From: an uncultured Ruminiclostridium sp.
GTDB lineage: Bacteria; Bacillota; Clostridia; Oscillospirales; Ruminococcaceae
DNA: 40,255 nt
NCBI GenBank assembly: GCA_947630175.1
Contig: CANRGJ010000016.1
Span: 1-40,255 of the forward strand
Reading direction: 5' to 3'
A program made the position numbers and the translations under genes. The notes beneath the pieces are model-generated. The model was not told the DNA's origin, did not search any database, and saw nothing but the letters and a program-made list of their open reading frames with translations. Within the stretch, counting starts at the first letter, position 1. Every line of letters begins with the position of its first letter. Positions 11,029 through 38,984 of the stretch are shown here, one piece after another.

Positions 11029-12264
11029 ATGGCTTCGATAAAAGTTAAGTTCAGGCCCTCGACTGTCGCCGACCGCGAGGGTGCAATCTATTACCAGATA
11101 ATCCATGAGAGGAAAGTGCGCCAGCTGCCCACAGACTATAAGGTATTCCAGTCGGAGTGGGACGAATCCCGCTCGATGGTGGTTGCTGCCCATGACAGCG
11201 GACGCAAACCACAGCTCCTGTCAATCCGCGAGCGTATTCGTTGGGACGTGGAGCGGCTGACGAGGATTGACCGCAGGCTGAAGGCCGGGGGCATGGCCTA
11301 TACCGTTGACGACGTAATCGACGGGTTCAACCGATATGCTCAGGAATACTCCCTGTTCAACTTCATGGAGAGTCTCATCGCCAGACTCAGACAGCACGGC
11401 AGAGTCAGGACGTGCGAGTCCTACCGGTCCACCCTCAACAGTTTCAGGAAATTCCTTGAGGACCAGGCGCCTGATGACAATCACCACCAGAATGGGGATA
11501 TAATGCTCGACAGCATCACATCCAATGTCATGGAGGCATATGAGGCATGGCTCAGGCAGAGGGGTGCGTCGCTCAACACAATTTCCTTTTACGCCAGGAT
11601 ACTCCGGGCTGCATACAACCGTGCGGTGGAGGATGACATCATCGAGAACCGCAATCCGTTCCGCAAGGTATATACAGGAGTTGACAAGACTGTAAAAAGG
11701 GCGTTGCCGCTGACATCGATCAGGAAAATCAGGTCACTGGACCTGTCGCTCAGCCCGTCGCTCGATTTTGCGAGGGATATGTTCATGATGAGCTTCTACC
11801 TGCGCGGCATGAGCTTTATCGACATGGCGTTCCTGAAGAAGAGCGACCTCAGGAACGGGTGCGTGACCTACCGGCGCCACAAGACCGGCCAACAGCTGGT
11901 CATCGCATGGACAGATGAGATGCAGGTCCTTCTCGACAAGTACCCTGAAAACGGCAGCGACTACCTGCTCCCCATAATCCGCAATCCGGGCACCGTGGAG
12001 CTGTACGCCTACCGCAATGCCGGCTACAACATAAACAGGAGTCTGAAAAAGGTCGCGGAGAAGGCGGGGATTGATGTACACCTTACTTTATATGTGGCCC
12101 GCCACAGCTGGGCATCGGCGGCAAAGGCAAAGGGCATCCCACTGTCGGTAATCAGCGAGGGGCTCGGACACGATTCGGAAGCCACCACACAGATATATCT
12201 GGCGAGTCTCGACACCTCAGTAATAGACAATGCAAACTCCCTTATCATGCAAAGCCTGAAATAG
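11029..12264 (+). CDS. Tyrosine recombinase, probable local invertase of the capsule promoter
   Basis: An arm-type N-terminal domain (residues 1-85), a SAM-like core-binding domain (about 105-210, with SYRSTLNSFRKFLED) and a catalytic domain. The active-site set is visible: Arg259 (FYLRGMSF), Lys285 (RRHKTGQQ), Arg358 in YVARHSW (the HxxR position carries Tyr, as in many Bacteroidetes enzymes), His381 (GLGHDSE) and the nucleophile Tyr390 (TTQIYLASLD). The length is typical of the Bacteroidetes family that includes capsule and surface-gene invertases (Tsr type). It stands directly upstream of a 14-bp inverted-repeat pair and a UpxY gene, the layout seen in phase-variable capsule loci, so local inversion is the likely job. 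Excision of the neighbouring element is the alternative. Confidence 0.88.
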   Translation: MASIKVKFRPSTVADREGAIYYQIIHERKVRQLPTDYKVFQSEWDESRSMVVAAHDSGRKPQLLSIRERIRWDVERLTRIDRRLKAGGMAYTVDDVIDGFNRYAQEYSLFNFMESLIARLRQHGRVRTCESYRSTLNSFRKFLEDQAPDDNHHQNGDIMLDSITSNVMEAYEAWLRQRGASLNTISFYARILRAAYNRAVEDDIIENRNPFRKVYTGVDKTVKRALPLTSIRKIRSLDLSLSPSLDFARDMFMMSFYLRGMSFIDMAFLKKSDLRNGCVTYRRHKTGQQLVIAWTDEMQVLLDKYPENGSDYLLPIIRNPGTVELYAYRNAGYNINRSLKKVAEKAGIDVHLTLYVARHSWASAAKAKGIPLSVISEGLGHDSEATTQIYLASLDTSVIDNANSLIMQSLK

Positions 12265-12297
12265 CGGCGACAGCTCTAAGATTCCGCCTATATGGAT

Positions 12298-12343
12298 ACA
12301 CGTCAACGCCCCGGCACCGGTAGGTCCTGGGGCGTTGACGTGT
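12298..12343. terminator. Terminator-like hairpin after the recombinase
   Basis: Perfect 15-bp inverted repeat: left arm ACACGTCAACGCCCC (12298-12312), 16-base loop, right arm 12329-12343. It is followed on the plus strand only by TTAGC, so the T run is weak. It can stop recombinase transcription and also lies in the path of the promoter that faces left in the present orientation of the invertible segment. Confidence 0.7.
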
Positions 12344-12362
12344 TTAGCAACTATCCAAATCG

Positions 12363-12557
12363 CTTGGTAAGTGATAATAAACAACGGTGCAAAGGTACAA
12401 AAAAATATTGGCATTCAGGCTATTTATGAAGCTAAAAAAGTCGTGTCCTCCCTAAATTTTGGGCCAAATTGAAACATTGTTTAGCAAATGGGATATTTGC
12501 TGCTTTGTAAGATGAATTATATCAGGCAGATACATCTTGTCCATATCACTTACCAAG
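12363..12557. repeat. Invertible segment bounded by 14-bp perfect inverted repeats
   Basis: The left repeat CTTGGTAAGTGATA (12363-12376) is the exact reverse complement of the right repeat TATCACTTACCAAG (12544-12557). The repeats enclose 167 bases. Spacing, position between a tyrosine recombinase and upxY, and a single outward promoter box inside match the invertible capsule promoters of Bacteroides. The segment is AT-rich and holds a small hairpin (AGCAAAT/ATTTGCT, 12483-12489 and 12495-12501). The only perfect TAnnTTTG box inside points left, so the orientation shown is expected to be OFF for the capsule. Confidence 0.85.
12390..12397 (-). promoter_or_regulatory. Phase-variable capsule promoter -7 box (TACCTTTG), facing away from the capsule genes
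   Basis: The minus strand reads TACCTTTGCA, a perfect and strong Bacteroidetes -7 element preceded by a T tract. It lies near the left inverted repeat and reads toward the recombinase hairpin. After inversion about the repeat centre it would occupy about 12523-12530 on the plus strand and give a leader of roughly 200 bases to the upxY start. No perfect plus-strand TAnnTTTG is found in the segment, so there is no obvious second promoter for the present orientation. Confidence 0.75.
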
Positions 12558-12672
12558 TGAATACTAAGTACTAACTTAAAAGACGAGATGAAAAAGTGAC
12601 CAAAACACGAGTAAAAAAGCGAGGAAAGCCGGCTGACTGCAAATCCTCTTTCTTCATAGATAATGCTTGTAA

Positions 12673-12707
12673 CTGCTTGAATTTCATAAGTATATGAATT
12701 TAAGCAG
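12673..12707 (+). promoter_or_regulatory. Leader hairpin upstream of upxY
   Basis: CTGCTT (12673-12678) pairs with AAGCAG (12702-12707). After a bulged G and one T:T mismatch, TTCATA pairs with TATGAA across the AGTA loop. The structure sits 36 bases before the upxY ATG, inside the leader that the flipped promoter would transcribe. UpxY-type antiterminators act on the 5' leader of their own operon, so this is a candidate recognition or pausing element; that is inference. Confidence 0.5.
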
Positions 12708-12743
12708 GACTTGAAGAATTGCTCTTAGGTCACAAAAGCACTT

Positions 12744-13280
12744 ATGGAAGCCCCCGTGAAACAGTGGTTCGTGATGCGTGACCTCAAGCGTAGGAACGCC
12801 AATAATCTCGCGATCCACGAGCTTGCCAAGGCCGGTCTCGAGGTGTTCACCCCGATGACGCAGATGGTAATGAAAATCGGAGGACGAATCCAGCGCCGCG
12901 ACGTCCCGCTCATACAAGACCTGTTGTTTGTCCACGAGACAAAGACCGCGCTCGACCCGTTTGTCGAGAAGTATCAGACCCTCCAGTACCGCTTCCAGCG
13001 TGGCAAAACAGCCAACGAACCCATGACCGTCGGAAGCGAGGAGATGGATAGGTTCATATTCGCTGTGAGCAATACCGAATCTCCTATATATTATAAGCCC
13101 GGCGAACTGACGGAATCAATGTACGGCAAGTCCGTGCGCATCGTCGGCGGCATCCTCAACAATTTCGAGGGGCATCTTCTCTCTATCAAGGGCAAGAGAA
13201 AGAAGCATCTGATAATAGAGTTGCCCAACCTTATTGCCGCCGCCGTCGAGGTCCAGCCCGAATTCATCCAGCTCGTCTGA
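12744..13280 (+). CDS. upxY: UpxY-family transcription antiterminator (NusG paralogue)
   Basis: 178 residues with the NusG layout: an N-terminal NGN domain opening WFVMRDLKRRNANNLAIHELAKAGLEVFTPMTQ, the RRDVPLIQDLLFVHE segment typical of UpxY proteins, and a short C-terminal KOW-like domain (GKSVRIVGGILNNFEGHLLSIKGKRKKHLIIELP). UpxY proteins ride with RNA polymerase from the promoter-proximal leader and prevent premature termination in the long capsule operon; each acts on its own locus. The gene is first after the invertible promoter, as usual. Expression would depend on segment orientation. The start ATG follows a leader hairpin. The call rests on domain order, the loop motif and position. 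Confidence 0.88.
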   Translation: MEAPVKQWFVMRDLKRRNANNLAIHELAKAGLEVFTPMTQMVMKIGGRIQRRDVPLIQDLLFVHETKTALDPFVEKYQTLQYRFQRGKTANEPMTVGSEEMDRFIFAVSNTESPIYYKPGELTESMYGKSVRIVGGILNNFEGHLLSIKGKRKKHLIIELPNLIAAAVEVQPEFIQLV

Positions 13281-13345: not shown

Positions 13346-14104
13346 ATGCTTACCGCTCTTCCTTCCAGAATAATGAACTACCGCGTCTCAGCTGCATCCC
13401 CGACCGAGGAGCTGATGACACTCGGGCAGATTCTCTCTGAGGTAGGCGACTACATGTCAACCATCCTTGACCGCGAGCATCTTTCCCTGTCAAGGCGATG
13501 CGCCACAAGACTCGGAAAGGTTGTCAGCGAACTGATAACGAGGAAGTGCATAAAGTCGCAGGATGACCTTTATGAAATTTCTGAGTCAGCCGTAGCCAAG
13601 GCGGATTTAAGCGCTATGACGGTTTCAGACCTTCATACCCTCTATCGCCAGTGGCCGATGCGCCATAGGGAAAGGTTGTCCGAAGGTCGGGAACACCTCA
13701 CATATTATTATGAAGGTCGGATTGTCCGGGAACTCCAGCGCCGTAAGCCTGCTGACAAAGGCGAGCGTCTGAAGATTGACTATTGCGTGGCAACGTATAA
13801 CAACGAGCTTGACAATATGTCGTTCATCTTCTCATTGCCCGTCAATGCAGACGACGCTAATGTATATCCGGACCCGTCGAGGGTCTATTCTCCCGAAGAG
13901 CTTGCCGCGCTCATCAGAAGATACAGCGATTATCGCGATATCATAGGGCGCGAGATTCTGGTGGAATACACCGACCTTGCTCTCGACCTCATCAATGCCA
14001 ATCCCTCGCAGCCGATGGCGTGTCTTGTCGATGCGCTCGCTGCCCTTAGGGAAAAGGGGAATTATTCGCATCCCGGTTCTTTCGAGCCGCCTGTCAGCGG
14101 TTAA
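13346..14104 (+). CDS. Hypothetical protein in the regulatory head of the capsule locus (252 aa)
   Basis: Not recognised. The protein is soluble, mainly helical and charged, with LSLSRRCATRLGKVVSELITRKCIKSQDDLYEI near residues 47-80, a segment HTLYRQWPMRHRERLSEG near 96-115 and a C-terminal helix pair (ALIRRYSDYRDIIGREIL; DLALDLINANPSQPMACL). There is no signal peptide, membrane segment or enzyme motif. The ATG at 13373 (MNYRVSA) is an alternative start. It is the first gene after upxY, where B. fragilis loci carry upxZ, an inhibitor of foreign UpxY proteins. It is much longer than UpxZ and I see no clear similarity, so a regulatory role is only a positional guess. Confidence 0.6.
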   Translation: MLTALPSRIMNYRVSAASPTEELMTLGQILSEVGDYMSTILDREHLSLSRRCATRLGKVVSELITRKCIKSQDDLYEISESAVAKADLSAMTVSDLHTLYRQWPMRHRERLSEGREHLTYYYEGRIVRELQRRKPADKGERLKIDYCVATYNNELDNMSFIFSLPVNADDANVYPDPSRVYSPEELAALIRRYSDYRDIIGREILVEYTDLALDLINANPSQPMACLVDALAALREKGNYSHPGSFEPPVSG

Positions 14105-14124
14105 GCCATGGTGATTCCAGCACA

Positions 14125-14930
14125 ATGGGAATAAAAATGCTTCCGAAATTATCCGACACAAAGGAAATAATAGGCTACGGCCACTGGCTGATCATGCGCG
14201 GTCAACACGCCGGTAATTTCATTTTCAACGGACATACACCAACTGTCGAGGAACGTGATATAGCCCGTGACTTGCAGGAGCTGTCCGAACTGATTAAGAA
14301 ACGGTTGGCGACCTGTAAACCGGAAGATGTAGGAGACTTGCTCGACTGTTATGACATGACATACAGGATCGGATTCAAGAAGAACCCTCTCCGGTATTTA
14401 TTGACAGACACCGTAAGAGAGTCCTGAATTCATGGAAGGAAGGCAACCGTGACATCGAGGAAAGCAGCATTTATAACCTACTTTCTCCGACGAAGATACG
14501 CAGTTGCTCCCCACGTGACAAAAAACAGTATGAAACCTCTTGGCAAACGATCCGCGAAAAGTGGATTAAAACTCTCGCCGGCAGCTCATACTTTAACGAT
14601 GCAACATCCTACGAGAACTACCAGCGGCTCGCACTGCTGATGCGTGAGAATCTCACGGATTGTTTCAACGGAGACTCCGGGCGTGCGGAAAAAGCGAAGC
14701 ACGGCTTGTACGACTATAATAAGGTGGAAGATTTGTCTACCCTCGGTTCACAAATCCTTCGCAGTTACCAGCTATTCGTCTCATCACTTTTTCCCGATGT
14801 CCTCGCCTACGACGAAATGATGGCTCTCGACAACAACATCCTCCTCGAACTCTCCAATCGCCCCGACATCGACCCCTACGACCGGAAAGCTTTCTCCCTC
14901 GCCCTCGAATACAACAAGAAACTGGCCTGA
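14125..14930 (+). pseudogene. Frameshifted hypothetical gene in the capsule regulatory head
   Basis: Two overlapping frames read as one protein. The first (14125-14427) encodes 100 residues, beginning with MLPKLSDTKEIIGYGHWLI (after MGIK) and ending RYLLTDTVRES. The second is open from 14355 to 14930 without a good start of its own and continues as SWKEGNRDIEESSIYNLL..., including KKQYETSWQTIREKWIK and LRSYQLFVSSLFPDVLAYD. Inserting one base between 14355 and 14424 would join them into about 268 residues (for example ...TVREFLNSWKEGN). No canonical slippery heptamer is present, so programmed frameshifting is unlikely. The intact protein would be soluble and helical, of unknown family. A short ATG-initiated product at 14640 is possible but would lack most of the protein. 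Confidence 0.6.
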
Positions 14931-15023
14931 CACTCCAACTCCTCAATTAAGCATTAAGCATTCCGAATTCCTCATCAAGCCGTTTCCGCCCGGGCCGTGC
15001 CCCGAAAAGAATAAGATCAAATC

Positions 15024-15563
15024 ATGACACCCGAACAAGTCTACGCCGAATGGCGCTCTTCGCTCAAATCCCCGGATGACAGTCTATTCTACTATCATCC
15101 CAATCTGGAGCGTATACTTCTTGGACTGTCGATATACGCAATCTCCTCACGTCCCCTTGTCAAAGACCTTGGCAAAGCGGAATCACTGAGAATCCTGAAC
15201 ATCTACATTACTGACCTCATCACCGCATGGATTGATGAAGACGACGATGCCTTCAAGACAATGTTCGACATGACCATGACGGTAGCCGAGGCATACATAC
15301 CCTGCCTCATGGCAGCCGAGAAGGAATACCCCTCAAAGAAACGCCTGATAAGAAAACTGTCCTTCTTATACGGACACGCGATAGCCTGCGGCGGCGACAT
15401 GACCCCGGCACTCACCGAAACCCTCCTCGACAACCTCTCCACCGACGGCAAGCAGCTCCACTCCTCCAAAATCCAGCAATTCGGCAACTCCATCCTCTCC
15501 CTCATCCGCATCCACGGCATGGACATCCCCGTCCCAGCCCTCACTCGCCTCAACGGCTGGTAA
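15024..15563 (+). CDS. Hypothetical helical protein in the capsule regulatory head (179 aa)
   Basis: Not recognised. It starts MTPEQVYAEWRSSLKSPDDS and is almost entirely helical: LERILLGLSIYAISSRPLVKD, a long acidic helix with DLITAWIDEDDDAF, KRLIRKLSFLYGHAIACGG and a C-terminal LSLIRIHGMDIPVPALTRLNGW. No membrane segment. Length and all-helical character are close to those of UpxZ proteins, and it occupies the same neighbourhood between upxY and the biosynthetic genes, so a UpxZ-like role is conceivable, but I could not identify family residues. Codon use (many TCC and CTC codons) resembles the upstream genes rather than the AT-rich capsule core. Confidence 0.65.
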   Translation: MTPEQVYAEWRSSLKSPDDSLFYYHPNLERILLGLSIYAISSRPLVKDLGKAESLRILNIYITDLITAWIDEDDDAFKTMFDMTMTVAEAYIPCLMAAEKEYPSKKRLIRKLSFLYGHAIACGGDMTPALTETLLDNLSTDGKQLHSSKIQQFGNSILSLIRIHGMDIPVPALTRLNGW

Positions 15564-15616
15564 AAGAAGCCCTTTCTTGGCAGAATATTACGGTGCTGAA
15601 ATTTTAAGACAAAGTA

Positions 15617-16445
15617 ATGGAATACGAGATAGAAAAACCATCTTGCTTCAGATTTTGAAAGGCAACTTTTCAAGGCAAGCCTCTACAATCTGAAAGACAG
15701 TGGGAATCCTCTGCGTCTAAACAATTTCGCATATTCTCTGAGAGAACTCACGCGGCATTTCCTTGAAAGACTCGCTCCGGATGGTGAGGTGAGACAAGCA
15801 CCCTGGTACAGGATACACGATCCGAAAAAACCAGAGATGATAACAAGGACTCAAAGGATGCAATATGCCGTTCATGGTTGGTTGCTACCTGAATATGTGA
15901 AGTCGGAATTGGGTATTGATACGGAAGACATAATAAAGGAACTCAACGATGGAATCAATAGATTAAGCAAATTCACCCATGTCAATCCGTCAACATTCAA
16001 CTGCGATGACAACACTACGAAACAGTTGAGCAACGAAATACTGGAGAGTGTATTGTCATTCTTTCAGCTAATAGATGAATCGAGAAAAAGGGTGGAGGAA
16101 GCTGCATTCGACTGTGTAGACGAAGAGATGGTTTCATCGTTTTACGGAACCACATTCAACGAGATTGACATGCTTGCCACCCACCACGAGATAGAATGCT
16201 TCATTGTCAGCAGAATGGACAAAACGGGGGAAGATGACGGCAACTTCTACATGGAGGCAGACGGTGAGGTGCATGTGCGCCTCCAATATGGCTCAGACGG
16301 AGATATGAGAAGAGGCGATGGACATGAAATGCACACCTCTCTTCCATTCACATCCACCTTCACAGTCTCCTTCAAAAATGAAAAGGGGGATTTACATCTT
16401 ACAGACCCGAACATTGAAATCGACAATTCTTCTTTCTTTGAATAG
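15617..16445 (+). pseudogene. Frameshifted gene resembling a predicted pPIWI-associating nuclease
   Basis: The natural ATG at 15617 starts MEYEIEK and then stops, while the downstream frame (from 15633) reads NHLASDFERQLFKASLYNL, LRLNNFAYSLRELTRHFLERL, RTQRMQYAVHGWL, LSKFTHVN, SFFQLIDESRKRV, DMLATHHEIE and DGDMRRGDGHEMHTSLPF. Changing the A5 run at 15633-15637 to A4 joins them exactly into a protein of about 275 residues. The LNNFAYSLRELTRH opening, the SK(F/Y)TH segment and the RRGDG...FPF end are what I recall for a domain described as a predicted pPIWI-associating nuclease; I cannot verify the family name. A GTG at 15789 might give a 218-residue product lacking the first 57 residues. The gene lies between unknown genes and the wbp cluster. 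Confidence 0.5.
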
Positions 16446-16686
16446 GAACTTATGTACCAAGCATCTTCTTTACCTGCCGGTCATAGATTCGGAGGAGGCA
16501 ACTCGCAGATTTTACGTAACAAAATCGTTTCACATGACTCTCGTAAGTATTGTTAATAAAAATAATTCTGACGTAAAAATTAAATGCCAAAATGGTGTTG
16601 GATGAAAGTCGGAATTCCAATTCGAATCGCTCTTTGGAGCGCTTATACGTAAACTCCATTTATAAAGTATAAATTAATATTAAATC
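16446..16686. other. Intergenic stretch with no clear gene
   Basis: About 240 AT-rich bases between two hypothetical genes. I see only a small perfect hairpin (GATTTT, 7-base loop, AAAATC, 16509-16527) and no promoter box or credible reading frame. Confidence 0.5.
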
Positions 16687-16983
16687 ATGACCGAATTAGC
16701 GAATAAATTTTCAATTTCCGAATTACAATCTATCCTGATTTTTCTTCAGGGTGGATGCAGCATTGCTGATTTGATAAGAGAGATTGAAAATCCCGAAAGC
16801 ACACTTTTCAATCCAAGTAGCAAAGGAAAATTCAAGAATATGCTGCCGAGATTACGTGACATATCTGCAGCTGAGGAGCAAACCTTGAAAACATTCTTAG
16901 ATATACATGTCTCAGGAATTGAGAGTGATATTTTGACTGCCCTCATTCCATTCTATACATCTGCTGACAAGAGCAGAAAGTAA
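16687..16983 (+). CDS. Small hypothetical protein (98 aa)
   Basis: Not recognised. A soluble, probably helical protein starting MTELANKFSISELQSILIFLQGG, with a Ser/Pro-rich middle (PESTLFNPSSKGKF) and a helix LRDISAAEEQTLKTFLDIHV. There is no signal peptide and no obvious motif. It lies 33 bases upstream of wbpB on the same strand, so it would be transcribed with the capsule operon. It is more AT-rich than the wbp genes that follow. It may be a regulator or a leftover of an inserted cassette. Confidence 0.5.
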   Translation: MTELANKFSISELQSILIFLQGGCSIADLIREIENPESTLFNPSSKGKFKNMLPRLRDISAAEEQTLKTFLDIHVSGIESDILTALIPFYTSADKSRK

Positions 16984-17016
16984 CTTGCTTCAATATAATT
17001 TATTCCAAATAATAAT

Positions 17017-17994
17017 ATGGCAAATTTTGCATTGATTGGCGCTGCGGGATATATTGCCCCGCGTCATATTAAAGCCATTGCCGACACAGGCAACAACCTT
17101 GTAGTGGCATACGATCGTTTTGACAGTGTAGGCCGTCTTGACAGCAGTTTCCCGGAAGCATCTTTCTTCACTGAGCAGGAGCAGTTTGACAGATTCTGCC
17201 ACAATCAGATGAAAACTGAAAATCCTCTGCATTGGCTGTCGATATGCACACCCAACTACACTCACGCACCTTTCATCGAGGAAGGTCTGAGACTCGGAAC
17301 AGATGTAATCTGTGAAAAACCGATTGTATTACATGCAAAGACAATCGACGAGCTCATGAAAGTTGAAGATGAGACAGGTCATAAGGCGTACAATATTCTT
17401 CAGCTTAGACTTCACAAGGCTATAGCCGATCTCAAGAAGAAAATCGACAACGGTCCTAAAGACAAAATCTACGATGTCGACCTCACCTATATCACATCAC
17501 GCGGCAAATGGTATTATGCGAGCTGGAAAGGTGATGTTCACAAAAGCGGTGGCGTTGCTACAAACATCGGTGTCCATTTCTATGACATGCTCCAGTGGGT
17601 TTTCGGTCCGGTAAAGAAGAACATTGTCAATGTGATGAGCTTCGACCGTGTGGCCGGTTATCTAGAGCTTGAAAAGGCACGTGTTCGCTATTTCCTCAGC
17701 ATAAATGCCGAGAATCTGCCGGAAAACGCGGTTCAGGGTGAAAAGAGAACTTATCGCACCCTCAATATCGACGGTGACGAATTCGAGTTCAGCCAGGGTT
17801 TCACCGAGCTTCACACAGAAAGCTACAAGAATATTCTGAGCGGCAACGGCTTCCGTATCAGTGAGGCGCGCCCTTGCATAGAGATTGTGGAGCAGATACG
17901 CACCTCAACTCCTGTCGGACTTGTCGGTGACTATCATCCACTTGCGAAACTTCCATTCTCACACCATCCTTTTGGCTGGGACGAAAAGAGATGA
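17017..17994 (+). CDS. wbpB: UDP-N-acetylglucosaminuronate 3-dehydrogenase (WbpB/WlbA)
   Basis: Gfo/Idh/MocA-family oxidoreductase of 325 residues. The Rossmann motif FALIGAAGYIAPRHI opens the protein, the catalytic ICEKP motif is at 98-102 (Lys101), and YYASWKGDVHKSGGVATNIGVHFYDML supplies the active-site His region. The family oxidises the 3-hydroxyl of UDP-GlcNAcA, and characterised members regenerate bound NAD+ by reducing 2-oxoglutarate to 2-hydroxyglutarate. It is followed immediately by the WbpE and WbpD genes (gaps of 15 and 2 bases), the usual cassette for UDP-2,3-diacetamido uronic acids. Strong identity by motif and neighbours. Confidence 0.93.
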   Translation: MANFALIGAAGYIAPRHIKAIADTGNNLVVAYDRFDSVGRLDSSFPEASFFTEQEQFDRFCHNQMKTENPLHWLSICTPNYTHAPFIEEGLRLGTDVICEKPIVLHAKTIDELMKVEDETGHKAYNILQLRLHKAIADLKKKIDNGPKDKIYDVDLTYITSRGKWYYASWKGDVHKSGGVATNIGVHFYDMLQWVFGPVKKNIVNVMSFDRVAGYLELEKARVRYFLSINAENLPENAVQGEKRTYRTLNIDGDEFEFSQGFTELHTESYKNILSGNGFRISEARPCIEIVEQIRTSTPVGLVGDYHPLAKLPFSHHPFGWDEKR

Positions 17995-18009
17995 TATAAT
18001 CCCGGAAAT

Positions 18010-19143
18010 ATGAATAAGAAAATTCAAATGGTAGACCTTCACGGTCAATACCTGAAGATCAAACCGGAGGTTGACAAAGGGATACAGGAAGTAATCGACT
18101 CTTGCGCCTTTATCAATGATCCTCAAGTCAAGGAATTTGCATCCGAACTTGAAAAATATTCAGGTTCCAAACATGTGATTACATGTGCCAATGGCACGGA
18201 CGCGCTCCAGATAGCATTGATGGCATTGGGACTGAAGCCCGGAGACGAGGTTATCGTGCCTGCCTTCACATACGTTGCGTCAGCAGAGGTAATCGGACTG
18301 TTGGGTCTGACACCGGTGATGGTCGACGTTGCCCCCAAGACATTCAACGTTACTGTCGAGAACATAAGGAAAGCGATTTCACCGAAGACAAAAGCCATTA
18401 TCCCTGTGCATCTCTTCGGTCAGTCGTGCGACATGGAGCCGATAATGAAGCTTGCAAAGGAGCATGGCCTTTATGTGATAGAGGATAATGCTCAGGCGAT
18501 AGGTTCGGTATATACTTTCTCTGACGGCACGAAGAAACACACCGGCACAATCGGAAATATAGGTTGCACCTCTTTCTTCCCCTCGAAGAACCTCGGTTGC
18601 TATGGCGACGGTGGGGCTATTTTCACCGATGACGATGATTTGGCTGAGAAACTGCGCATGATTGCAAACCATGGTCAGAAAGTTAAATACCATCATTCGG
18701 TGATTGGCTGCAACTCGCGTCTCGATACTATCCAGGCTGTCGTGCTTAAGGCAAAGCTGCCTCATCTTGATGAATATTGCAGTGCCCGCAAAAAGGCAGC
18801 TGACTATTATTCTGAAAACCTGAAAGATGTGGAGGGTATAGTGGTTCCTGAGGAGATTCCGAATTCCACTCACGTATATCATCAATACACACTTCAAATC
18901 CTCGACGGCAAGCGCGACGCATTGAAGGAATTCCTTGCATCCAAGGGCATTCCGGCAATGATCTACTATCCGCTTCCTCTTCAGAAGCAAGAGGCGTTTA
19001 AGGAGATTACTCGCTCAGCCGAGTCTCTCGAGATTTCTCAGAATCTTGCTGATTCTGTGCTTTCGCTCCCCATCCATACCGAGCTTACCCACGAGGAGCA
19101 GGATATTATAATCAACGCTGTAAAAGAATTTTTCAAGAAATAA
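18010..19143 (+). CDS. wbpE: UDP-3-oxo-GlcNAcA aminotransferase (WbpE)
   Basis: A DegT/DnrJ/EryC1-type PLP enzyme of 377 residues. The family landmarks are in order: [14 protein letters not shown] (62-74, phosphate-binding region), [24 protein letters not shown] (Asp159 region) and the Schiff-base lysine in [15 protein letters not shown] (Lys193). WbpE transfers the amino group of L-glutamate to the 3-keto sugar made by WbpB, releasing 2-oxoglutarate, which WbpB consumes. Normal length. It begins 15 bases after wbpB and ends two bases before wbpD, so it sits in a tightly coupled cassette. Confidence 0.93.
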
Positions 19144-19145
19144 AC

Positions 19146-19724
19146 ATGGCAGAATATTTCGCACACCCTACAGCGACCATCGATGAAGGGGCTCAGATTG
19201 GTGATGGTGTAAAGATATGGCACTACAGCCACATAATGGACGGAGCTGTACTCGGAGAGAAGTGCAACATCGGTCAGAACGTGGTGATCTCCCCGGGTGT
19301 CACACTCGGTCGGAACTGCAAGGTTCAGAACAATGTGTCAGTCTACACCGGAGTCACATGCGACGAGGATGTGTTTCTTGGACCATCGTGCGTGTTTACC
19401 AATGTCACCAATCCGCGAAGCGCGGTAAACCGTCACTCCCAATATGCGAGAACTCATGTGGGCAAAGGCGCCACAATTGGTGCGAACGCCACAATCGTCT
19501 GTGGACATGATATTGGTGAGTACGCGTTTATAGGAGCCGGAGCTGTAGTTACAAAAACAGTGGCTCCATACGCCCTTGTGGTAGGCAATCCTGCAAGGCA
19601 GATAGGATGGATGAGCGAATATGGTCATCGTCTTGACTTCGATGCCAATGGCTTTGCCTTATGTCCTGAATCCGGCAGCAAATATCAGCTTGCTGATGGA
19701 AAAGTTGTGAAAATTAATAAATAA
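19146..19724 (+). CDS. wbpD: UDP-2-acetamido-3-amino-uronate N-acetyltransferase (WbpD)
   Basis: A left-handed beta-helix acyltransferase of 192 residues built of hexapeptide repeats ([58 protein letters not shown]). The loop [23 protein letters not shown] and the end [21 protein letters not shown] are typical of the WbpD/WlbB family. It acetylates the 3-amino group to give UDP-2,3-diacetamido-2,3-dideoxy-glucuronic acid from acetyl-CoA. It starts two bases after wbpE and ends four bases before the dehydrogenase gene. Confidence 0.93.
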
Positions 19725-19728
19725 AACA

Positions 19729-21021
19729 ATGATATACGACAAATTAGTAAAAAAAGAGGCAAAGCTTGCTGTTGTCGGTCTCGGATATGTGGGCCTTCCT
19801 CTTGCCCTTGCCTTGGCGAAGAAAATCTCAGTCATAGGGTTTGACATCAATGAGAAACGTGTCAACCTCATGAAAAACGGCATCGATCCCTCAAAAGAGC
19901 TTGAACACGAGGCATTCGAAGGTGCTGACATTGAATTCACCACCTCACTCGACAAGCTGAAGGAAGCGTCTTTCTTCATCGTGGCTGTGCCTACACCCAT
20001 TGATGACCACAACCAGCCAGACCTCACGCCTGTGCTTGGAGCTACACGCTCAGTGGCCAAATGTCTCAAGAAGGGGGACTATGTGGTTTATGAGTCTACT
20101 GTCTATCCCGGCTGCACGGAAGAGGACTGCTTGCCGATTCTTGAGGAAATCTCCGGTCTTAAGCTTGGAGAGGACTTCAAGTTAGGTTATTCTCCCGAGC
20201 GTATCAACCCGGGAGAGAAGGTACATACTCTGCCCAACACAATAAAAATTGTATCCGGTTCAGATCCCGAAGCCCTCGACCAGATTGCAAAAGTGTACGA
20301 ACTGGTAGTAAAGCCTGGCGTTCACAGGGCCCCGAACATCAAGGTGGCCGAGGCCGCAAAGATTATCGAGAACACGCAGCGCGACGTGAACATCGCCCTG
20401 ATGAACGAGCTTTCCATAATCTTCTCGCGCATAGGCATCAACACATACGATGTGCTCGAAGCAGCCGGCACAAAATGGAACTTTCTCAAGTTCTATCCTG
20501 GACTCGTGGGAGGCCATTGCATCGGCGTAGACCCCTACTATCTCGTCTACAAGGCAAACGAGCTCAAATACCATAGCCAGATAATCTCCGCAGGTCGATT
20601 CATCAACGATACGATGGGAGGTTACATCGCCAAGAAGCTTGTCAAGAAGCTTATCGGACTCGGCAAGGCAATCCTCGGTGCCCGTATCCTCGTGATGGGT
20701 CTCACTTTCAAAGAGAACGTAGCCGACATTCGCAATTCCAAGGTTGTTGACATCATCAACGAACTTCGCGACTTCGGCGCTGATGTTGATATAGTCGATC
20801 CATACGCTGATCCCGAAGACGTAAAGCGCATGTATGGTCTCAACCTCATTGAGAAGCCTCACGGCAACTATGATGCTATTGTTGTAGCAGTCGGCCATGA
20901 TGAATACCGTGCCCTGACTGAAGACTATTTCACAGGTCTTGTACACCCCAACGCCGTCCTCGTCGACGTCAAAGGTCTCTACCGCGACAAAATCCACAGT
21001 CTCAAATACTGGAGTTTGTAA
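19729..21021 (+). CDS. UDP-N-acetyl-hexosamine 6-dehydrogenase (WbpA/WbpO/TviB type)
   Basis: A 430-residue NAD-dependent nucleotide-sugar dehydrogenase with an N-terminal Rossmann motif (AVVGLGYVGLPLALALA, 14-30), VPTPIDDHNQPDL, ESTVYPGCTE, GYSPERINPGEK, and the catalytic Cys264 in GGHCIGVDPYYL; the C-terminal Rossmann-like domain holds MGLTFKENVADIRNS. The sequence pattern is of the Vi/TviB-WbpO type. It oxidises C6 of UDP-GlcNAc or UDP-GalNAc to the uronic acid, here most likely the first step feeding WbpB-E-D. The gene directly follows wbpD (4-base gap). Whether it is a true WbpA (GlcNAc) or WbpO (GalNAc) enzyme cannot be read from sequence alone. Confidence 0.9.
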   Translation: MIYDKLVKKEAKLAVVGLGYVGLPLALALAKKISVIGFDINEKRVNLMKNGIDPSKELEHEAFEGADIEFTTSLDKLKEASFFIVAVPTPIDDHNQPDLTPVLGATRSVAKCLKKGDYVVYESTVYPGCTEEDCLPILEEISGLKLGEDFKLGYSPERINPGEKVHTLPNTIKIVSGSDPEALDQIAKVYELVVKPGVHRAPNIKVAEAAKIIENTQRDVNIALMNELSIIFSRIGINTYDVLEAAGTKWNFLKFYPGLVGGHCIGVDPYYLVYKANELKYHSQIISAGRFINDTMGGYIAKKLVKKLIGLGKAILGARILVMGLTFKENVADIRNSKVVDIINELRDFGADVDIVDPYADPEDVKRMYGLNLIEKPHGNYDAIVVAVGHDEYRALTEDYFTGLVHPNAVLVDVKGLYRDKIHSLKYWSL

Positions 21022-21032
21022 TCATAATACAT

Positions 21033-21069
21033 TCAGATGAATGCAGACTTAAAGTTTGCATTCATCTGA
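21033..21069 (+). terminator. Intercistronic hairpin between the wbp cluster and wzx
   Basis: TCAGATGAATGCAGACT (21033-21049) pairs with the reverse arm 21053-21069 across a 3-base loop: 17 bp with one G:U pair, perfect otherwise. No T run follows (TCCCTTACAA). The strength is unusual for an operon interior. It could stop or slow polymerase at the boundary between the conserved and the AT-rich part of the locus, or protect upstream RNA. Confidence 0.55.
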
Positions 21070-21097
21070 TCCCTTACAATTTACTTGCGGATTTAAG

Positions 21098-22444
21098 ATG
21101 GTCAGCGAAATAATTAACAGGATAAAAAGGTCTCAAGTAATCAAAAATATGATGACATTGAGCTTGGGAACCATAATATCTCAGATAATTCCAATTATTC
21201 TGTCTCCTGTCTTGGCTCGCATTTATTCTCCGGATGACTTTGGATTATGGGGCATATTTTCAAGTACTGCGCTTATATGCAGTATATTTATGACTGGACG
21301 TTATGAATTAGCCATTTTGCGTCCCAAGGATGATAATGATGCGCTCAATCTTGTACGACTAAGTCTTCTGATAACGGCTGTAATACTTTGCGTGCTTTCT
21401 GTTGGATATATCATATGTAAAGGCATAGGTCTTTTTCAAAGTATAGGGATTACTTTTTTTTTGTCCCTAATTTTATATCTTCTATTTAATTCAACAACAC
21501 AGATTTTATCATATTTTGCTAACCGAGATGAAAGGTACAGAAAAATAGCGGAAGGCTCCATCAGCAGAAGTGCCGTACAAGGTCTTACACGATTAGGATT
21601 TGGACTGATTGGAATCACACGTATGGGTTTGATTTATGGAACGATTCTTGGAGTTTTGTCTAATGTTGCTATTTTATCGACTCCTTTTAAGAGGCTAAAA
21701 GAAATTTTTCGTAAGGCAAAATGGAGTGATATAAAACAGCAGGCGTATATATATCGAAGATTTCCGATATACGAGATGCCAAGTTCCGGTCTAAACTCTC
21801 TATCTACTAATCTTCCGTTGATTTTATTAGCGTTTTATTTCCCAGAGTCTGAAATCGGATTCTTCTCAATGGCAGTGAGCCTTATGTTCTTACCCATTAG
21901 TTTTATCACTTCCGCTCAAAGTCAAGTTTATTACAAGCGCACATGTGTGATTCAGAATCCTTCTGAAATTGGCAGTTTAACGGCTAAGATCTTCACTCTT
22001 AATTTCTTGTTTGGGGCTATAGCCTTGACTATATTCGAACTATTCGCGGGTAATCTATTCTCCATATTTCTTGGCTCACGCTGGGCTGTAGCCGGCAATT
22101 ATGCTGCTTGTTTTGCGCCATGGATTCTTATGGTTGTCAGCTTTTCCCCAATAAGTACCATTTTTCTTCTCCGCGACAAGCAGCAGCTTGCCTTTATTTT
22201 TAATCTATCCTTGCTTATAGCAAGAATGTTTGCTGTTTTGGGAGGTGGGATATTATTCCATTCCATGCAGTGGTCAATGATCCTGTATGGAATAGTTGGA
22301 TTTATAATTTGGATAGTCGAGGGATTGTTTATTTTAAAACTTAGCAACGCCTCATTTCCTAGAAAACAGACGTTTTTTTTTATTACAATAATTACGATAT
22401 ATATAACTATATGGATTGTGAAAATTTATTCAATATTGAGCTGA
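21098..22444 (+). CDS. wzx: Polysaccharide flippase Wzx
   Basis: A PST/MATE-type transporter of 448 residues from the ATG at 21098 (MVSEIINRIKRSQ); the frame upstream of it has only a TTG and overlaps the hairpin. About 12 membrane segments are visible (for example NMMTLSLGTIISQIIPIILS, TALICSIFMT, LLITAVILCVLSVGYIIC). The opening SPVLARIYSPDDFGLWGIFSS is the classic flippase signature. It moves the lipid-linked repeat unit across the inner membrane. It is AT-rich compared with the wbp genes before it. It overlaps the next gene by 34 bases. Confidence 0.9.
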   Translation: MVSEIINRIKRSQVIKNMMTLSLGTIISQIIPIILSPVLARIYSPDDFGLWGIFSSTALICSIFMTGRYELAILRPKDDNDALNLVRLSLLITAVILCVLSVGYIICKGIGLFQSIGITFFLSLILYLLFNSTTQILSYFANRDERYRKIAEGSISRSAVQGLTRLGFGLIGITRMGLIYGTILGVLSNVAILSTPFKRLKEIFRKAKWSDIKQQAYIYRRFPIYEMPSSGLNSLSTNLPLILLAFYFPESEIGFFSMAVSLMFLPISFITSAQSQVYYKRTCVIQNPSEIGSLTAKIFTLNFLFGAIALTIFELFAGNLFSIFLGSRWAVAGNYAACFAPWILMVVSFSPISTIFLLRDKQQLAFIFNLSLLIARMFAVLGGGILFHSMQWSMILYGIVGFIIWIVEGLFILKLSNASFPRKQTFFFITIITIYITIWIVKIYSILS

Positions 22445-24051
22445 TAAACAATAACGGTAAAAAATGGTTGTTTGAAGGGGATTGCTATATTAAAGGTTTT
22501 GCATTCCACAATAACGAGTTACTTGAAGGCAACTCTCTTTTAAATGTTATAAAGAAATCAATATCGTCCGGGACTCTTGATCTGGTTCTTAGAGAACTTA
22601 ACGGCAACTTTGCAGCTGTAATTAATTTTTGTGACAAAGCTTATTTGATTTCTGATAAGATAAGATCTTATCCGTTGATTTATACCCGCCAAAATGATGA
22701 ACAATGGTTTATTACAGATTCTGCTATCGGCGTTGATAATAATAAATTGATAACCAAAAAGTTTAATTCACTAAATTCTCTTGAATTTCTGGCTCTTGGA
22801 TATGTAAGCGGCAATGAGACATTATATGAAGATATCTTTACCGTCGATGCTGGAGAATATGTAGTTTTAGGGACTAATGGTACTAATCATCGGACATCTT
22901 ACTTTAAGTATATTTTCGAAAAAGAGACATTTGACAAAGAAACAATAATTAAGAAGGCATATGACAGTTTGGAAAAAGCATTTCAACGAACTATTGCAAC
23001 TATCCCACCCGGAAGCCAAATCGTGATTCCACTGAGTGGAGGATATGACTCCAGACTTATTGCATGCTTATGTAAAAAATATGGCTTGGGAAATGTCGTG
23101 TGCTATACATATGGACGTCCCGACAGCTTTGAGGTTTCCACTTCGCGCAATGTCGCTGTTCAATTAGGATTTGAATGGCATTATGTAGAATATAAGGCTG
23201 GAGAGTTCTCGTCAATTATTAACCAAGAGGAGTTTAATAGATATTCAGTATTTAGTCAAAACTGTAACACAATACCTCACGTACAAGATTATATAGCAAT
23301 CAAAACCTTAAAGGAAAAAGGAATACTTAAATCAGGAGCGATTGTAATTCCGGGCTTTTGTGGAGATTTATTCGGTGGGAGTAAAATCCCGAGAGAGACA
23401 TTTGACTGGTCGGCATCGAAATACAATAAAATCAGTTTTGCTAAATTAATTTTTAAACATTTCTATGATCTAAATACGCCTCTTCGCTGTTGGCAAAAAA
23501 AAATCCAATGGAAAATAATGTCACAAACTTTACAAACAGACATCAGTACAGAAGATGTATTTTTGAATAATTATGAGCAATGGTGTATCCAAAATAGACT
23601 ATCTAAATTTATAATTAACTCCCTGCGGGTGTATGAATTTTATGATATGGATTGGAGAATGCCTCTTTGGGACGACGAGTATGCCAAGTTTTGGTATACA
23701 ATTCCATGGCGTCAGAAGAGTCCGCAACTGCTCAATAAATTCATGTTTGATAGATACTTTGATAGTTATGGGGTAAAATTTCTTAAACCGGATACCAAAA
23801 AGATCCTTTGCAGTATAAAAAGTATTATTCCAAGAAAGTTACGACCTGTGATCAAAGATGTTGTTAACGTAATTTATGAACCATTCACTGACAAAACAAA
23901 AAAGGACATCAATTCGTTTACGGGAGAAGCTATATGTATTTATCAAAAAATGAATAAGAAATATGAGAAAGATATTTCAATAAAGAAAGATTCTATCGGG
24001 GCAATACTTGCAGCTTATATTATTAATAATATCGAGAATGAAAATATTTAG
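22411..24051 (+). CDS. Asparagine-synthase-like amidotransferase (ATP-dependent, no N-terminal Cys)
   Basis: 546 residues. The N-terminal half has the strand pattern of an Ntn-type glutaminase domain (GTLDLVLRELNGNFAAVINF near 54-73; DAGEYVVLG near 146-154), but it begins MDCENLFN: there is no Cys at position 2 after Met removal, so glutamine hydrolysis is doubtful. The second half is the AsnB synthetase domain with the PP-loop SGGYDSR (209-215) and later MDWRMPLWDDEYAKFW. In polysaccharide loci such proteins are proposed to amidate uronic acids (WbpS-like) using ATP and ammonia. Uronic acids made here are natural substrates, which supports that idea. It overlaps wzx by 34 bases and the GNAT gene by 14. 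Confidence 0.75.
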   Translation: MDCENLFNIELINNNGKKWLFEGDCYIKGFAFHNNELLEGNSLLNVIKKSISSGTLDLVLRELNGNFAAVINFCDKAYLISDKIRSYPLIYTRQNDEQWFITDSAIGVDNNKLITKKFNSLNSLEFLALGYVSGNETLYEDIFTVDAGEYVVLGTNGTNHRTSYFKYIFEKETFDKETIIKKAYDSLEKAFQRTIATIPPGSQIVIPLSGGYDSRLIACLCKKYGLGNVVCYTYGRPDSFEVSTSRNVAVQLGFEWHYVEYKAGEFSSIINQEEFNRYSVFSQNCNTIPHVQDYIAIKTLKEKGILKSGAIVIPGFCGDLFGGSKIPRETFDWSASKYNKISFAKLIFKHFYDLNTPLRCWQKKIQWKIMSQTLQTDISTEDVFLNNYEQWCIQNRLSKFIINSLRVYEFYDMDWRMPLWDDEYAKFWYTIPWRQKSPQLLNKFMFDRYFDSYGVKFLKPDTKKILCSIKSIIPRKLRPVIKDVVNVIYEPFTDKTKKDINSFTGEAICIYQKMNKKYEKDISIKKDSIGAILAAYIINNIENENI

Positions 24052-24589
24052 AATATTAAAATCACTAATAAGTATTAAGAAAACGATAACCTTTAAAGTA
24101 GTAGAAGCTATTCCACATGAATTGCCCTTTATAGTATTTAAAAATATCACAAATCACAACTTGGAGGATGTTGAGGATTTTAGAGACACACAATATATGT
24201 CAACATTCAGAAAGTTTCTTGAGAATAATGACAGAAAAGGACTTTATGGGTATTATAAAGGTCGGTGTGTTGTACATGGTTGGGTAGTTTATAATACCAC
24301 ATTTAAGACTAAAAAGGTTTGTGGCTATTTTCAACTTCCTCCTAAAAGTTGCTTTATCCATTTTTGTAACGTTACTGAATACATGAGAGGCAAGGGAATC
24401 TACAAAGCATTGCTTTACCAAATCTACAACCGACTTTGCAAAGGATACAATATCTATATAGACACGGGAAAGAATAATATTTCAGCATTAAAGGCAATAA
24501 AAGCTTCAGGAGCGAAAAGAATATTTCAACACATTACCGTCAATATAAGATCACATTGCATTATTTCATTTAAGAAAAAATATGAGTAA
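24038..24589 (+). CDS. GNAT-family acetyltransferase
   Basis: 183 residues from the ATG at 24038 (MKIFRILKSLISIKK); the frame extends ten codons upstream within the previous gene, but the later start gives the usual coupled overlap. The GNAT fold is indicated by a central strand CFIHFCNVTEYMRGKGIYKALLYQIY, which contains the R/Q-x-x-G-x-G/A-like motif MRGKGIYKALL for the acetyl-CoA pyrophosphate, and a following strand YNIYIDTGKNNISALKAIKASGAKRI, typical of the motif B region. It probably acylates an amino sugar of the repeat unit. It is AT-rich and overlaps the gene that follows by eight bases. Confidence 0.8.
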   Translation: MKIFRILKSLISIKKTITFKVVEAIPHELPFIVFKNITNHNLEDVEDFRDTQYMSTFRKFLENNDRKGLYGYYKGRCVVHGWVVYNTTFKTKKVCGYFQLPPKSCFIHFCNVTEYMRGKGIYKALLYQIYNRLCKGYNIYIDTGKNNISALKAIKASGAKRIFQHITVNIRSHCIISFKKKYE

Positions 24590-25568
24590 TAAAGACATTT
24601 ATTTGAAGCTTTTTTCGCAAGAGCCCGAGAAATTCCCAGTCCTTTTTTCCCCTTGGTGGCTTGATGCTGTATGCGATGATGGGAACTGGGATGTTCTCTT
24701 GTATATTAACGGTGACAAGATATATGGACTTTGGCCATATTTTCAGGCAAAACAAAAAATATTCAAAACAATACATCAACCGGCTTTTACACAGTATAGT
24801 GGTCCGCTATTATTCTATCCTGAGGGACTGACTGAGGTGAAACGTCTTGAATTTGAGAAGAAAGTCATTTCAAATTTAATTGACGTCGTGCCTAAAGAAG
24901 TTGACATGATTTCAATTAATTCAAGTCCTTTTCTTTTAAACTGGTTGCCATTTTATTGGAAGGGATTTAGACAAACGACCAGATACACATATACCACAAA
25001 CAGTTTAAGCGGTAAAGACGAGGATGCATTGTTACAAACCTATACAAAGGATGTGCGGAAAGCCATAAATAAATTCCGCTCACAAGGTTTCGTATGTAGA
25101 GATGCCAAAGATGTTAATTTCAACAGTAGAGATTTCTTTTTGTTACATAAAGAATGTTTAAGAAAAATCAACCGTGAGATATCCTATACTGAGGAGCTTT
25201 TGAAAAGGATGATAGATTATTCTATCTCTAATAAATCAGGAAAATTGCTTGTTGTGGAAGATGAACACAATAATATATGCGGAGCCACATTCTTCATTTA
25301 TAATTCATTTGAGGCTGTCGTTATCAATACGGCCGCAGACCATACAATCAAGCATTTAGGATATTTCTTAAATCATCTTTGTATCCTTGAGGCTTCCAGG
25401 CTTGTTAGTTCTTACAACATCGGTGGTAGCATGATAGAAGGAGTGGAAAAAATCTATCGTCAGTTCGGATTGCACCAAACCCCTTATTTCAATATCTCAA
25501 AAGAAATATCAATGTGCTACAAGATTTATTCCGCTGTGCGAAATTTAGGTAAAGCAATTCTTAGATGA
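24582..25568 (+). CDS. FemAB/CelD-like GNAT-fold acyltransferase
   Basis: 328 residues showing the Acetyltransf_6/FemAB layout: an N-terminal half with FSPWWLDAVCDDGNWDVLLY and GLWPYFQAKQKIF, then the AYTTNSLS...DVRKAINKFRSQGF region (KxxRxxIxKA-like) near 153-170, and LLVVEDEHNNICGATFFIY followed by AADHTIKHLGYFLNHLCILEASRL as the substrate-binding half. Members add amino acids or acyl groups to peptidoglycan or polysaccharides. Next to the GNAT and asparagine-synthase-like genes it suggests decoration of a uronic acid or amino sugar. It is AT-rich, and the next gene starts seven bases later. Confidence 0.78.
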   Translation: MSNKDIYLKLFSQEPEKFPVLFSPWWLDAVCDDGNWDVLLYINGDKIYGLWPYFQAKQKIFKTIHQPAFTQYSGPLLFYPEGLTEVKRLEFEKKVISNLIDVVPKEVDMISINSSPFLLNWLPFYWKGFRQTTRYTYTTNSLSGKDEDALLQTYTKDVRKAINKFRSQGFVCRDAKDVNFNSRDFFLLHKECLRKINREISYTEELLKRMIDYSISNKSGKLLVVEDEHNNICGATFFIYNSFEAVVINTAADHTIKHLGYFLNHLCILEASRLVSSYNIGGSMIEGVEKIYRQFGLHQTPYFNISKEISMCYKIYSAVRNLGKAILR

Positions 25569-25575
25569 AAATCGC

Positions 25576-26913: not shown

Positions 26914-26976
26914 AGATCAGGTATATAGTATGTCAAATACCTTAAATTATAATTTAAAGTATTCATCTTTATAATT

Positions 26977-28347: not shown

Positions 28348-28358
28348 AGTTCTGACTG

Positions 28359-30792: not shown

Positions 30793-30796
30793 ATTT

Positions 30797-31498
30797 ATGA
30801 GGATTCTGATGCTTTCAGATATGGGCAGCATCCACACAAAGAGTTGGGTAAAAAGCCTGAGTGAAAGAGGCTGCTCAATAATGCTGTTTTCGTTGCGTGA
30901 AAGTCACCCTGATTTTTACGCTAACCTGAATGATGTACAGATCAAGTATGCTCTTGCAAAAGGAAGCGACTCTTATTGGGATAAAGTCAAGTATCTCCGA
31001 TCTATATCTACGGTAAAAAACTGATAAAAGAATACAAGCCTGATATTGTTCATGCCCATTACGCGAGCAGCTATGGGCTTATCGGGGCTTTGGCAAGGAC
31101 AGAGGTGTCATACGTCGTATCGGTATGGGGCAGTGATGTCTATGATTTTCCCAACATCGTGCCGTTTGGCAAAAAAATCATCAGGTTCAATCTCAAGAAA
31201 GTATCCACAGGCAACGGCTAATGCTATCCAGAAATTTATTGATAATCCCAACCTACATGAAGAAATGGGGGAGAATGGACGTAAAAGAGTATTGGACCTC
31301 TATTATTGGAATGACAATGTGTCAAAGATGATCAATATATATAATATCACATTAGACATTCTGTCGTTTTACTATCCCCCAAAATATCTTCTAAATAATT
31401 CCCCAAAAATATTTTTAAATGAAGGACAAAAATATAAAACTTCTGACTGTAATAGGTGCGAGGCCGCAGATTATCAAGGCGGCAGCCGTGTCACGTGA
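30797..31498 (+). pseudogene. GT4 glycosyltransferase, frameshifted and internally deleted
   Basis: The start MRILMLSDMGSIHTKSWVKS (ATG 30797) is that of a GT4 enzyme and breaks at an A6 run (31015-31020): the first frame ends STVKN, while a -1 shift continues KLIKEYKPDIVHAHYASSYGL, SVWGSDVYDFPN and PFGKKIIRFNLKKVST up to about 31205. The next recognisable part, in a third frame, is ANAIQKFIDNPNLHEEMGENGRKRVLDLYYW...NDNVSKMINIYN, which is the extreme C-terminus of GT4 proteins. Roughly 150-200 residues of the donor-binding half, including the ExxxxxxxE site, are missing. The gene cannot encode an active enzyme, so either the sugar it added is lost from the repeat or another transferase took over. 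The coding tail overlaps wbpI. Confidence 0.8.
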
Positions 31499-35622: not shown

Positions 35623-35735
35623 ATTGAAAATTAATCAAACATTTTTCAAACACAACAAATCTTTGGTAAACGTTGGATTGGCTTATACTATTATATTGGC
35701 TACATCAACAATACAATATATCAAGAGTCGCAACT

Positions 35736-36575: not shown

Positions 36576-36613
36576 CATAGATATTTAACTTAATTTTTAG
36601 ATATAAAAATTTA

Positions 36614-37822: not shown

Positions 37823-37831
37823 CTCATTCAG

Positions 37832-38983: not shown

Positions 38984-38984
38984 T

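Follow-up and report, generated by a model that had tools for sequence, protein, structure and literature searches.

A probable phase-variation switch ahead of a Bacteroidales capsule operon, sequenced in the OFF orientation

The window analysed here, 40,255 bases in length, is an entire contig of a binned 2.70-Mb, 46-contig genome. A tyrosine recombinase gene and a upxY gene frame a 479-bp intergenic region, and the features relevant to this region are as follows.

11029..12264, + strand: tyrosine recombinase, 411 aa, with Arm-DNA-bind_5, Phage_int_SAM_5 and Phage_integrase domains
12298..12343: hairpin with 21-nt arms, 90% complementary, between the recombinase stop and the left site; probably the recombinase terminator
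12343..12350, + strand: proposed arm-type site, the outer copy of TTTAGCAA, located 16 nt ahead of the left site
12359..12375, + strand: left recombination site, ATCGCT-TGGTA-AGTGAT, overlapping the left 14-mer
12377..12543: putative invertible segment, 167 bases between the 14-mers
12390..12397, - strand: promoter box TACCTTTG of the TAnnTTTG type, directed away from the operon
12480..12487, + strand: inner copy of TTTAGCAA, at a distance of 65 nt from the right site; most relatives have it flipping together with the promoter
12545..12561, + strand: right recombination site, ATCACT-TACCA-AGTGAA, its core mirroring that of the left site
12673..12707, + strand: first predicted leader hairpin of upxY, two-sided change at 3 predicted pairs in an alignment of 4
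12708..12731, + strand: second, adjacent predicted leader hairpin of upxY, two-sided change at 1 pair
12744..13280, + strand: upxY, NusG-family antiterminator (NF033644 at 125 bits, cut-off 100)
13346..40178, + strand: downstream genes on the same strand; ORFs with no family match, next a pPIWI-associated nuclease, and after it mainly genes of polysaccharide biosynthesis

The original prediction had placed two perfect 14-bp inverted repeats between a tyrosine recombinase and upxY, and both gene assignments were confirmed by Pfam and NCBIfam. The repeats are likewise real: CTTGGTAAGTGATA lies at 12363-12376 on the plus strand and its reverse complement at 12544-12557, with 167 bases between them and a match that grows to 17 nt if one mismatch is allowed. 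This is the sole perfect inverted pair of at least 14 nt with a gap of 100-300 nt in the whole window, and no such pair arose in 100 dinucleotide shuffles of the window or in 3000 of the intergenic region; the pair is thus beyond chance expectation. The promoter box also proved to read as predicted. CAAAGGTA at 12390-12397 is the sole perfect TAnnTTTG on either strand of 12265-12743, it faces left, away from the operon, and by arithmetic a flip of the segment would carry it to 12523-12530. Inspection of the sequence upstream of this box revealed no TTTG at the usual -33 spacing, and an Rfam search of 12200-12900 returned two matches, both far under their gathering scores. As a separate observation, the promoter as sequenced is aimed, through 12377-12390, at the 3' end of the gene for the recombinase, and may yield RNA antisense to it.

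Catalytic-type motifs (YLRGMS, ARHSW, LGHDS and TQIYL) were located in the recombinase, which was aligned with a XerC-like chain, and its N-terminal arm-binding domain is recognised as PF17293 at 30.2 bits (cut-off 22.6). An Mpi-type serine invertase was ruled out by these tyrosine recombinase domains. A scan at E 0.001 of 37 distinct window ORFs of 100 aa or more yielded no excisionase family.

The contig most likely represents Bacteroidales DNA misbinned, as a whole, into a Clostridia-like genome. Ribosomal protein L1 of the binned genome shares 67-68% identity with the L1 of two Clostridia-titled MAGs, against 51-53% for four other genomes (three Bacteroidales by title, and a fourth titled Clostridium and placed in Muribaculum's family); the MAG UBA7087 gave no match in this L1 comparison. 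Tetranucleotide composition of the window correlates with stretches of 14 other contigs at 0.36-0.60, against comparison values of 0.82-0.98. Among 396 genomes of the binned genome's family, the recombinase was found at E<=1e-100 only in the window's own, and searches among relatives of the binned genome with DNA, UpxY and recombinase matched only that same genome. The nearest relative seen is instead UBA7087, listed in the family of Muribaculum caecicola, with 99.5% identity over 11029-12376 and no match upstream of the start codon. Horizontal transfer in place of misbinning is possible but less likely. Because the contig is probably misbinned, searches of its own genome say nothing about the host; an inventory of switches in that Clostridia-like genome was dropped as uninformative. 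A claim that the host carries a single switch was also dropped. The UBA7087 similarity sets in precisely with the start codon of the recombinase, which looks as though recombinase and left site had moved as a module.

Related recombinases were found at 76 loci, of which 71 were examined (L074 and L076-L079 were excluded as truncated or partial matches). Ten of these were too short or contained N (L004, L005, L009, L020, L022, L027, L030, L047, L058 and L066). Among the 61 judgeable loci, 35 possess an inverted pair of dyad sites downstream of the recombinase, and such a segment is absent within 1 kb downstream in the other 26 (less than 1 kb is available at L049 and L057). Together with the window, these 35 gave a set of 36 loci and 40 segments, picked by perfect inverted 12-mers and partly non-independent (L014 and L045 are 99% alike, L028 and L031 86%). 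In 32 of the 36 loci, window included, the first segment lies no more than 190 nt away from the recombinase; in the remaining four the distance is 224-996 nt. The commonest site arms are ATCTCT-n5-AGAGAT, the window has ATCGCT-TGGTA-AGTGAT with a right outer arm of TTCACT, and other arms occur in L026 and L073. While the arms are conserved, the 5-bp core varies among loci, even close ones such as L028 and L031. Mirrored cores were seen in 38 of 39 segments and were rejected as evidence, being a consequence of selecting loci by perfect repeats. Two tandem segments with different cores lie behind one recombinase in L011, L013, L016 and the later-found L138/L144. Tyrosine recombinases need core identity, so different cores would prevent recombination between the two segments. 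Three further relatives lie on viral contigs, with a segment at L133 and L134 and none seen at L135. At L064:4738-5033 a nested switch was noted, with one site in three copies and two opposed promoters.

Orientation was scored in 39 of the 40 segments, the outer nested pair of L064 being excluded. The TAnnTTTG box begins 35-49 nt from the outer edge of the segment, mostly 35-39 nt, and the chance of such a box at one given edge of a shuffled segment is 1.4%. By this marker 31 segments are OFF, 5 are ON (L032, L036, L037, L055 and L064), 1 is ambiguous and 2 have no box. Relatives, which the original prediction had proposed to search for both orders, thus contain the corresponding segment in both orientations. 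In a recombinase tree with 19 of 40 inner branches weak, the ON loci L037, L055 and L064 adjoin OFF loci and the other two were unplaced. A second marker was provided by TTTAGCAA, with at most one mismatch, 60-70 nt from the promoter-distal edge: it is present in 18 of 31 OFF segments and in the mirrored, ON place in 3 of 5 ON segments, against a chance rate of 0.9%. Box and inner motif thus agree for the most part. They conflict in L043, which is OFF by its box with the inner motif at the ON position, and L032 (ON) has an exact motif at the ON place plus a one-mismatch match at the OFF place; the two segments lacking a box have the inner motif one each way.

The OFF assignment of the window, supported by the direction of its box and by comparison with these loci, has to be weighed against a near-match. 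A one-mismatch box, GATATTTG at 12492-12499, faces the operon in the sequenced orientation with a TTG at a plausible spacing 20 nt upstream, and the segment could in principle invert with the sequenced orientation being the expressed one. However, 36 of 39 segments have perfect boxes close to a single edge (1 has them at both edges, 2 have none), that of the window lies at the edge facing away, and the stretch just past the inner motif is little conserved in 32 segments. We regard expression from GATATTTG as very unlikely.

Direct evidence of flipping comes from a cousin rather than from the window locus. Fifteen pMMCAT-like plasmid records, out of 89 with a match, were compared; their recombinase is 49% identical to that of the window, and two segments follow it. 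The second segment is OFF in 13 records, inverted between repeats at 100% identity in one (pMMCAT_BuniCL06T06, L158) and disrupted and non-alignable in one (L159, with a transposase beside the recombinase), and inversion of the first was seen in 0 of 14 alignable records; these counts are soft, because PMC8102008 describes ambiguities of invertible regions in pMMCAT assemblies that were fixed by hand for some isolates. That assembly ambiguity itself speaks for inversion. Contig ends point the same way. The UBA7087 contig that matches the window (L004) ends at the base corresponding to 12376, the last base common to both orientations, and of 12 loci compared two others behave similarly: L009 runs out on the final base of its site, and L058 stops one base short of that point. 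A 14-bp repeat hardly stops an assembler, so both orientations were presumably present at these ends.

These observations bear on two further readings of the repeats. They might be static, as an attachment-site remnant or a regulatory dyad that undergoes no recombination today; the 26 related recombinases with no neighbouring segment are compatible with this. Conserved arms around variable cores, the two orientations among related loci, the flipped plasmid copy and the near-identical relative whose contig ends at the branch point all argue against it, and we consider static repeats highly improbable. Alternatively, the enzyme could be the integrase of a conjugative element to the left, with the repeats as part of its attachment site. 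The recombinase is indeed integrase-like, and the left 10 kb of the window encodes ArdC, Toprim, DUF4099 and DUF3945 proteins, genes typical of conjugative elements. In relatives, however, the sites form inverted pairs that enclose a promoter, and the genes that follow are unrelated, which leaves this explanation scarcely credible.

The inverted plasmid copy, the occurrence of both orientations and the contig end together make the case that the region is a phase-variation switch of a Bacteroidales capsule operon, sequenced OFF, a reading to which we assign a probability of about 0.92. The recombinase at 11029-12264 would bind the two dyad sites and exchange strands within the identical 5-bp core TGGTA, inverting about 180 bp. 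As sequenced, the predicted promoter would fire leftward, leaving upxY and the operon OFF; after inversion the box would lie near 12523-12530, transcription would enter the leader, and UpxY, probably acting on the leader hairpins, would carry polymerase through the operon. The window itself would then add one further phase-variable capsule.

The design of such loci is known, as had been stated at the outset: PMC8748976 describes cassettes on conjugative elements that combine an invertase, an invertible promoter and upxY. These cassettes share with the window an adjacent invertase, a -7 TANNTTTGY box, upxY often as first gene, glycan genes and a mobile-element setting. They share with the family described here a predominance of OFF (4 of 96 ON) and one class with two adjacent segments. 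The parts of that paper covered contain no mention of an arm-type motif or of attP/attB-like asymmetry, unlike the loci here. The pMMCAT switch is similar in placing its segments before upxY, in a box distance of 38 and in the inner motif of its first segment, which lies at 65 as the TTGAGCAA variant. It differs in having two segments, other site arms and upxY 870 nt downstream of the recombinase, the inner motif of its second segment is not at 65, and its outer motifs are weak (2-3 mismatches). Bacteroides fragilis capsule promoters, inverted by Mpi, a serine enzyme, also precede upxY. There, one global invertase serves seven loci, according to PMC12632263, in contrast to the local tyrosine recombinase of the window.

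The less familiar element is the arrangement of TTTAGCAA about the sites. Logos and arm tables were built for 35 of the 39 segments, L015, L023, L026 and L073 being excluded as unassigned or mis-anchored. In the logos of the four arms, TTGTTTAGCAAnnATCCAA adjoins the left site externally, a second TTGTTTAGCAA occupies the inner arm distal to the promoter, the inner arm on the promoter side shows TAnnTTTG plus TAAGT, and the right outer arm is nearly blank. With two mismatches to either of two variants allowed, 32 of the 35 segments have the inner copy at 64-67 nt, measured from the site, a loose test that by rough arithmetic is passed by chance about one time in ten. A strict test (TTTAGCAA, one mismatch) placed the left outer motif at 13-19 nt in 16 of 35 and the distal inner motif at 62-68 nt in 21 of 35, against 0-3 of 35 for six other combinations of arm and distance and 0-2 for the reversed motif. 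Six segments either lie at 500-1000 nt from the recombinase or are the second of a tandem pair; the outer motif is kept in four (L008, L032 and the second segments of L011 and L016) and lacking in two (L007 and the second segment of L013). Since these four keep it, the outer motif appears to be part of the switch and not of the recombinase terminator.

The pattern of outer arm plus site also retrieved new examples. It occurs at 10 places in 8 of 397 Muribaculum-family genomes, the reversed control at none; two places were already known, one was cut by a contig end, one (L137) has no right site and six have one. These six and one viral-contig match make seven new segments, with the inner motif at 64-66 in six of them and with 5 OFF, 1 ambiguous and 1 ON. 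The arms of L134, on a viral contig with a recombinase 50% identical, are CCCCC-TAATA-GGAG; found by eye and missed by the repeat search, this segment is ON and nevertheless keeps the geometry, with the outer motif (TTGAGCAA) at 17, the inner at 65 and the box at 38. Twelve distinct plasmid- or phage-labelled segments, chosen by repeats, have the box at 37-39 in 12 of 12 (11 OFF, 1 ON); with one mismatch allowed, 6 of 12 carry TTTAGCAA or TTGAGCAA as the outer motif at 15-16. The 65-nt rule fits them poorly, with the inner motif (at most one mismatch) at 63-65 in only 5 of 12, and the second segment of L167 has a one-mismatch match in the opposite orientation. What appears new is the placement of TTTAGCAA, which lies 16 nt beyond the left site, recurs within the segment about 65 nt from its promoter-distal edge, and is rare elsewhere. 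The 16/65/38-nt geometry can serve as a search rule for such switches.

Which protein reads the two copies bears on how the switch might work. Lambda Int and IntDOT likewise possess an arm-binding domain and short arm sites near their core sites (PMC8138268), corresponding sites here being putative; they differ in that the sites here invert a promoter and that no excisionase was identified among the 37 ORFs scanned. Both copies might instead be bound by a host nucleoid protein or regulator, as in E. coli fim, a system that resembles the present one in its tyrosine recombinase (FimB/FimE), its orientation bias and its accessory IHF sites, one next to the left repeat, the other within the element (PMC9993118). 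Those accessory sites bind IHF and Lrp, unlike the arrangement proposed here. A search for an IHF-like site between core and inner motif found only a weak ATCAA-like consensus, which offers some encouragement for a host factor but is not put forward as an IHF site. To our knowledge, FimB has no arm-binding domain. On the other side, of 22 segments with two recognisable copies, 19 have an identical fourth letter in both (16 A/A, 3 G/G; relatedness ignored), and plasmid relatives carry TTGAGC variants. Both would be expected if the arm-binding domain of each locus reads its own copies, and the agreement is support, not proof. The excess of exact motifs within 1 kb downstream in loci with a segment (15 of 36 versus 2 of 26 without one) fits either binder. 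A host factor at both copies is thus a possibility to be taken seriously, at less than even odds.

If the recombinase itself binds both copies, the two orientations would be unequal substrates. In the ON geometry both motifs flank the left site and point to the core, and the right site has none; in the OFF geometry each site has one. By analogy, ON would comprise an attP-like left and an attB-like right site, and OFF a pair resembling attL and attR. For arm-binding integrases, attP x attB recombination needs integrase and a host factor, and attL x attR needs an excisionase as well. We therefore propose, tentatively and with rather less than even confidence, a promoter inverter with attP/attB logic, a portable set/reset switch in which the recombinase alone would turn ON to OFF and an excisionase-like factor would be needed for OFF to ON. 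Such logic would explain why most copies are OFF, and the excess (31:5 here; 92 of 96 in PMC8748976) fits the directional model, although other explanations exist. As proof of directionality the bias was rejected, given that a cost of expression, or several capsules with one ON, gives an equal bias. The unequal accessory sites of ON and OFF constitute a testable reason for it; if this holds, switching direction would be set by a factor and not by a coin-toss. No paper dealing with arm-type sites, or with attP/attB logic, in the inversion of Bacteroidales promoters was seen among the literature matches listed, which comprise titles and abstract starts with subscription literature mostly outside. 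PMC11892184, as far as covered, ran motif searches on whole invertons, and the motif may already figure in its supplementary tables.

Two adjacent hairpins are common to four relatives between the right site and upxY. Two-sided changes affect 6 of 29 predicted pairs of the whole fold, 4 of them within the two hairpins, a conservation across four sequences that is suggestive only. Antitermination by UpxY is established in B. fragilis (PMC12632263). The hairpins at 12673-12731, which have no Rfam match above gathering score, are a candidate UpxY recognition element.

In the window upxY is the first gene and glycan genes run from 17017 onward. Of the 27-kb operon originally predicted, the shared strand is borne out; the same-strand genes reach the contig end at 40255, so 27 kb is a minimum, and their transcription as one operon is presumed. 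Where upxZ would be expected as second gene, ORFs 13346-14104 and 14125-14427 gave no Pfam or NCBIfam match at E 0.001.

At related loci the first genes downstream vary, and the cassette therefore looks portable. Thirty such proteins were scanned, 7 having no match. The others include NusG/UpxY-like proteins (L023, L034, L073), BspA-like repeats (L006), a TonB-dependent receptor (L028), a type ISP restriction enzyme (L012), EcoRI-type and MmeI-type methylases (L040, L060), TerD (L013), SrfB (L011), FHA/kinase proteins (L015, L019, L024, L043), DUF3575 (L044, L064, L075) and radical SAM (L014). An iterated HMM search detected further UpxY-like ORFs in L071, L039, L042 and L055. If this picture is true, restriction enzymes, surface receptors and capsules would come under the control of one cassette.

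Several smaller observations concern individual genes. A predicted pPIWI-associated nuclease lies at 15789-16445, between upxY and the sugar genes, and 14977-16454 is 93.5% identical to UBA7087 DNA (L091). At L055:5122-6480 a single ORF, perhaps a fusion, matches an N-terminal domain of integrases and, in the iterated search, UpxY as well. In the window, UDP-GlcNAc 2-epimerase (31419-32581) and an FAD-oxidase (32581-35622) are each divided over two neighbouring ORFs, which may reflect broken genes, split genes or sequencing error.
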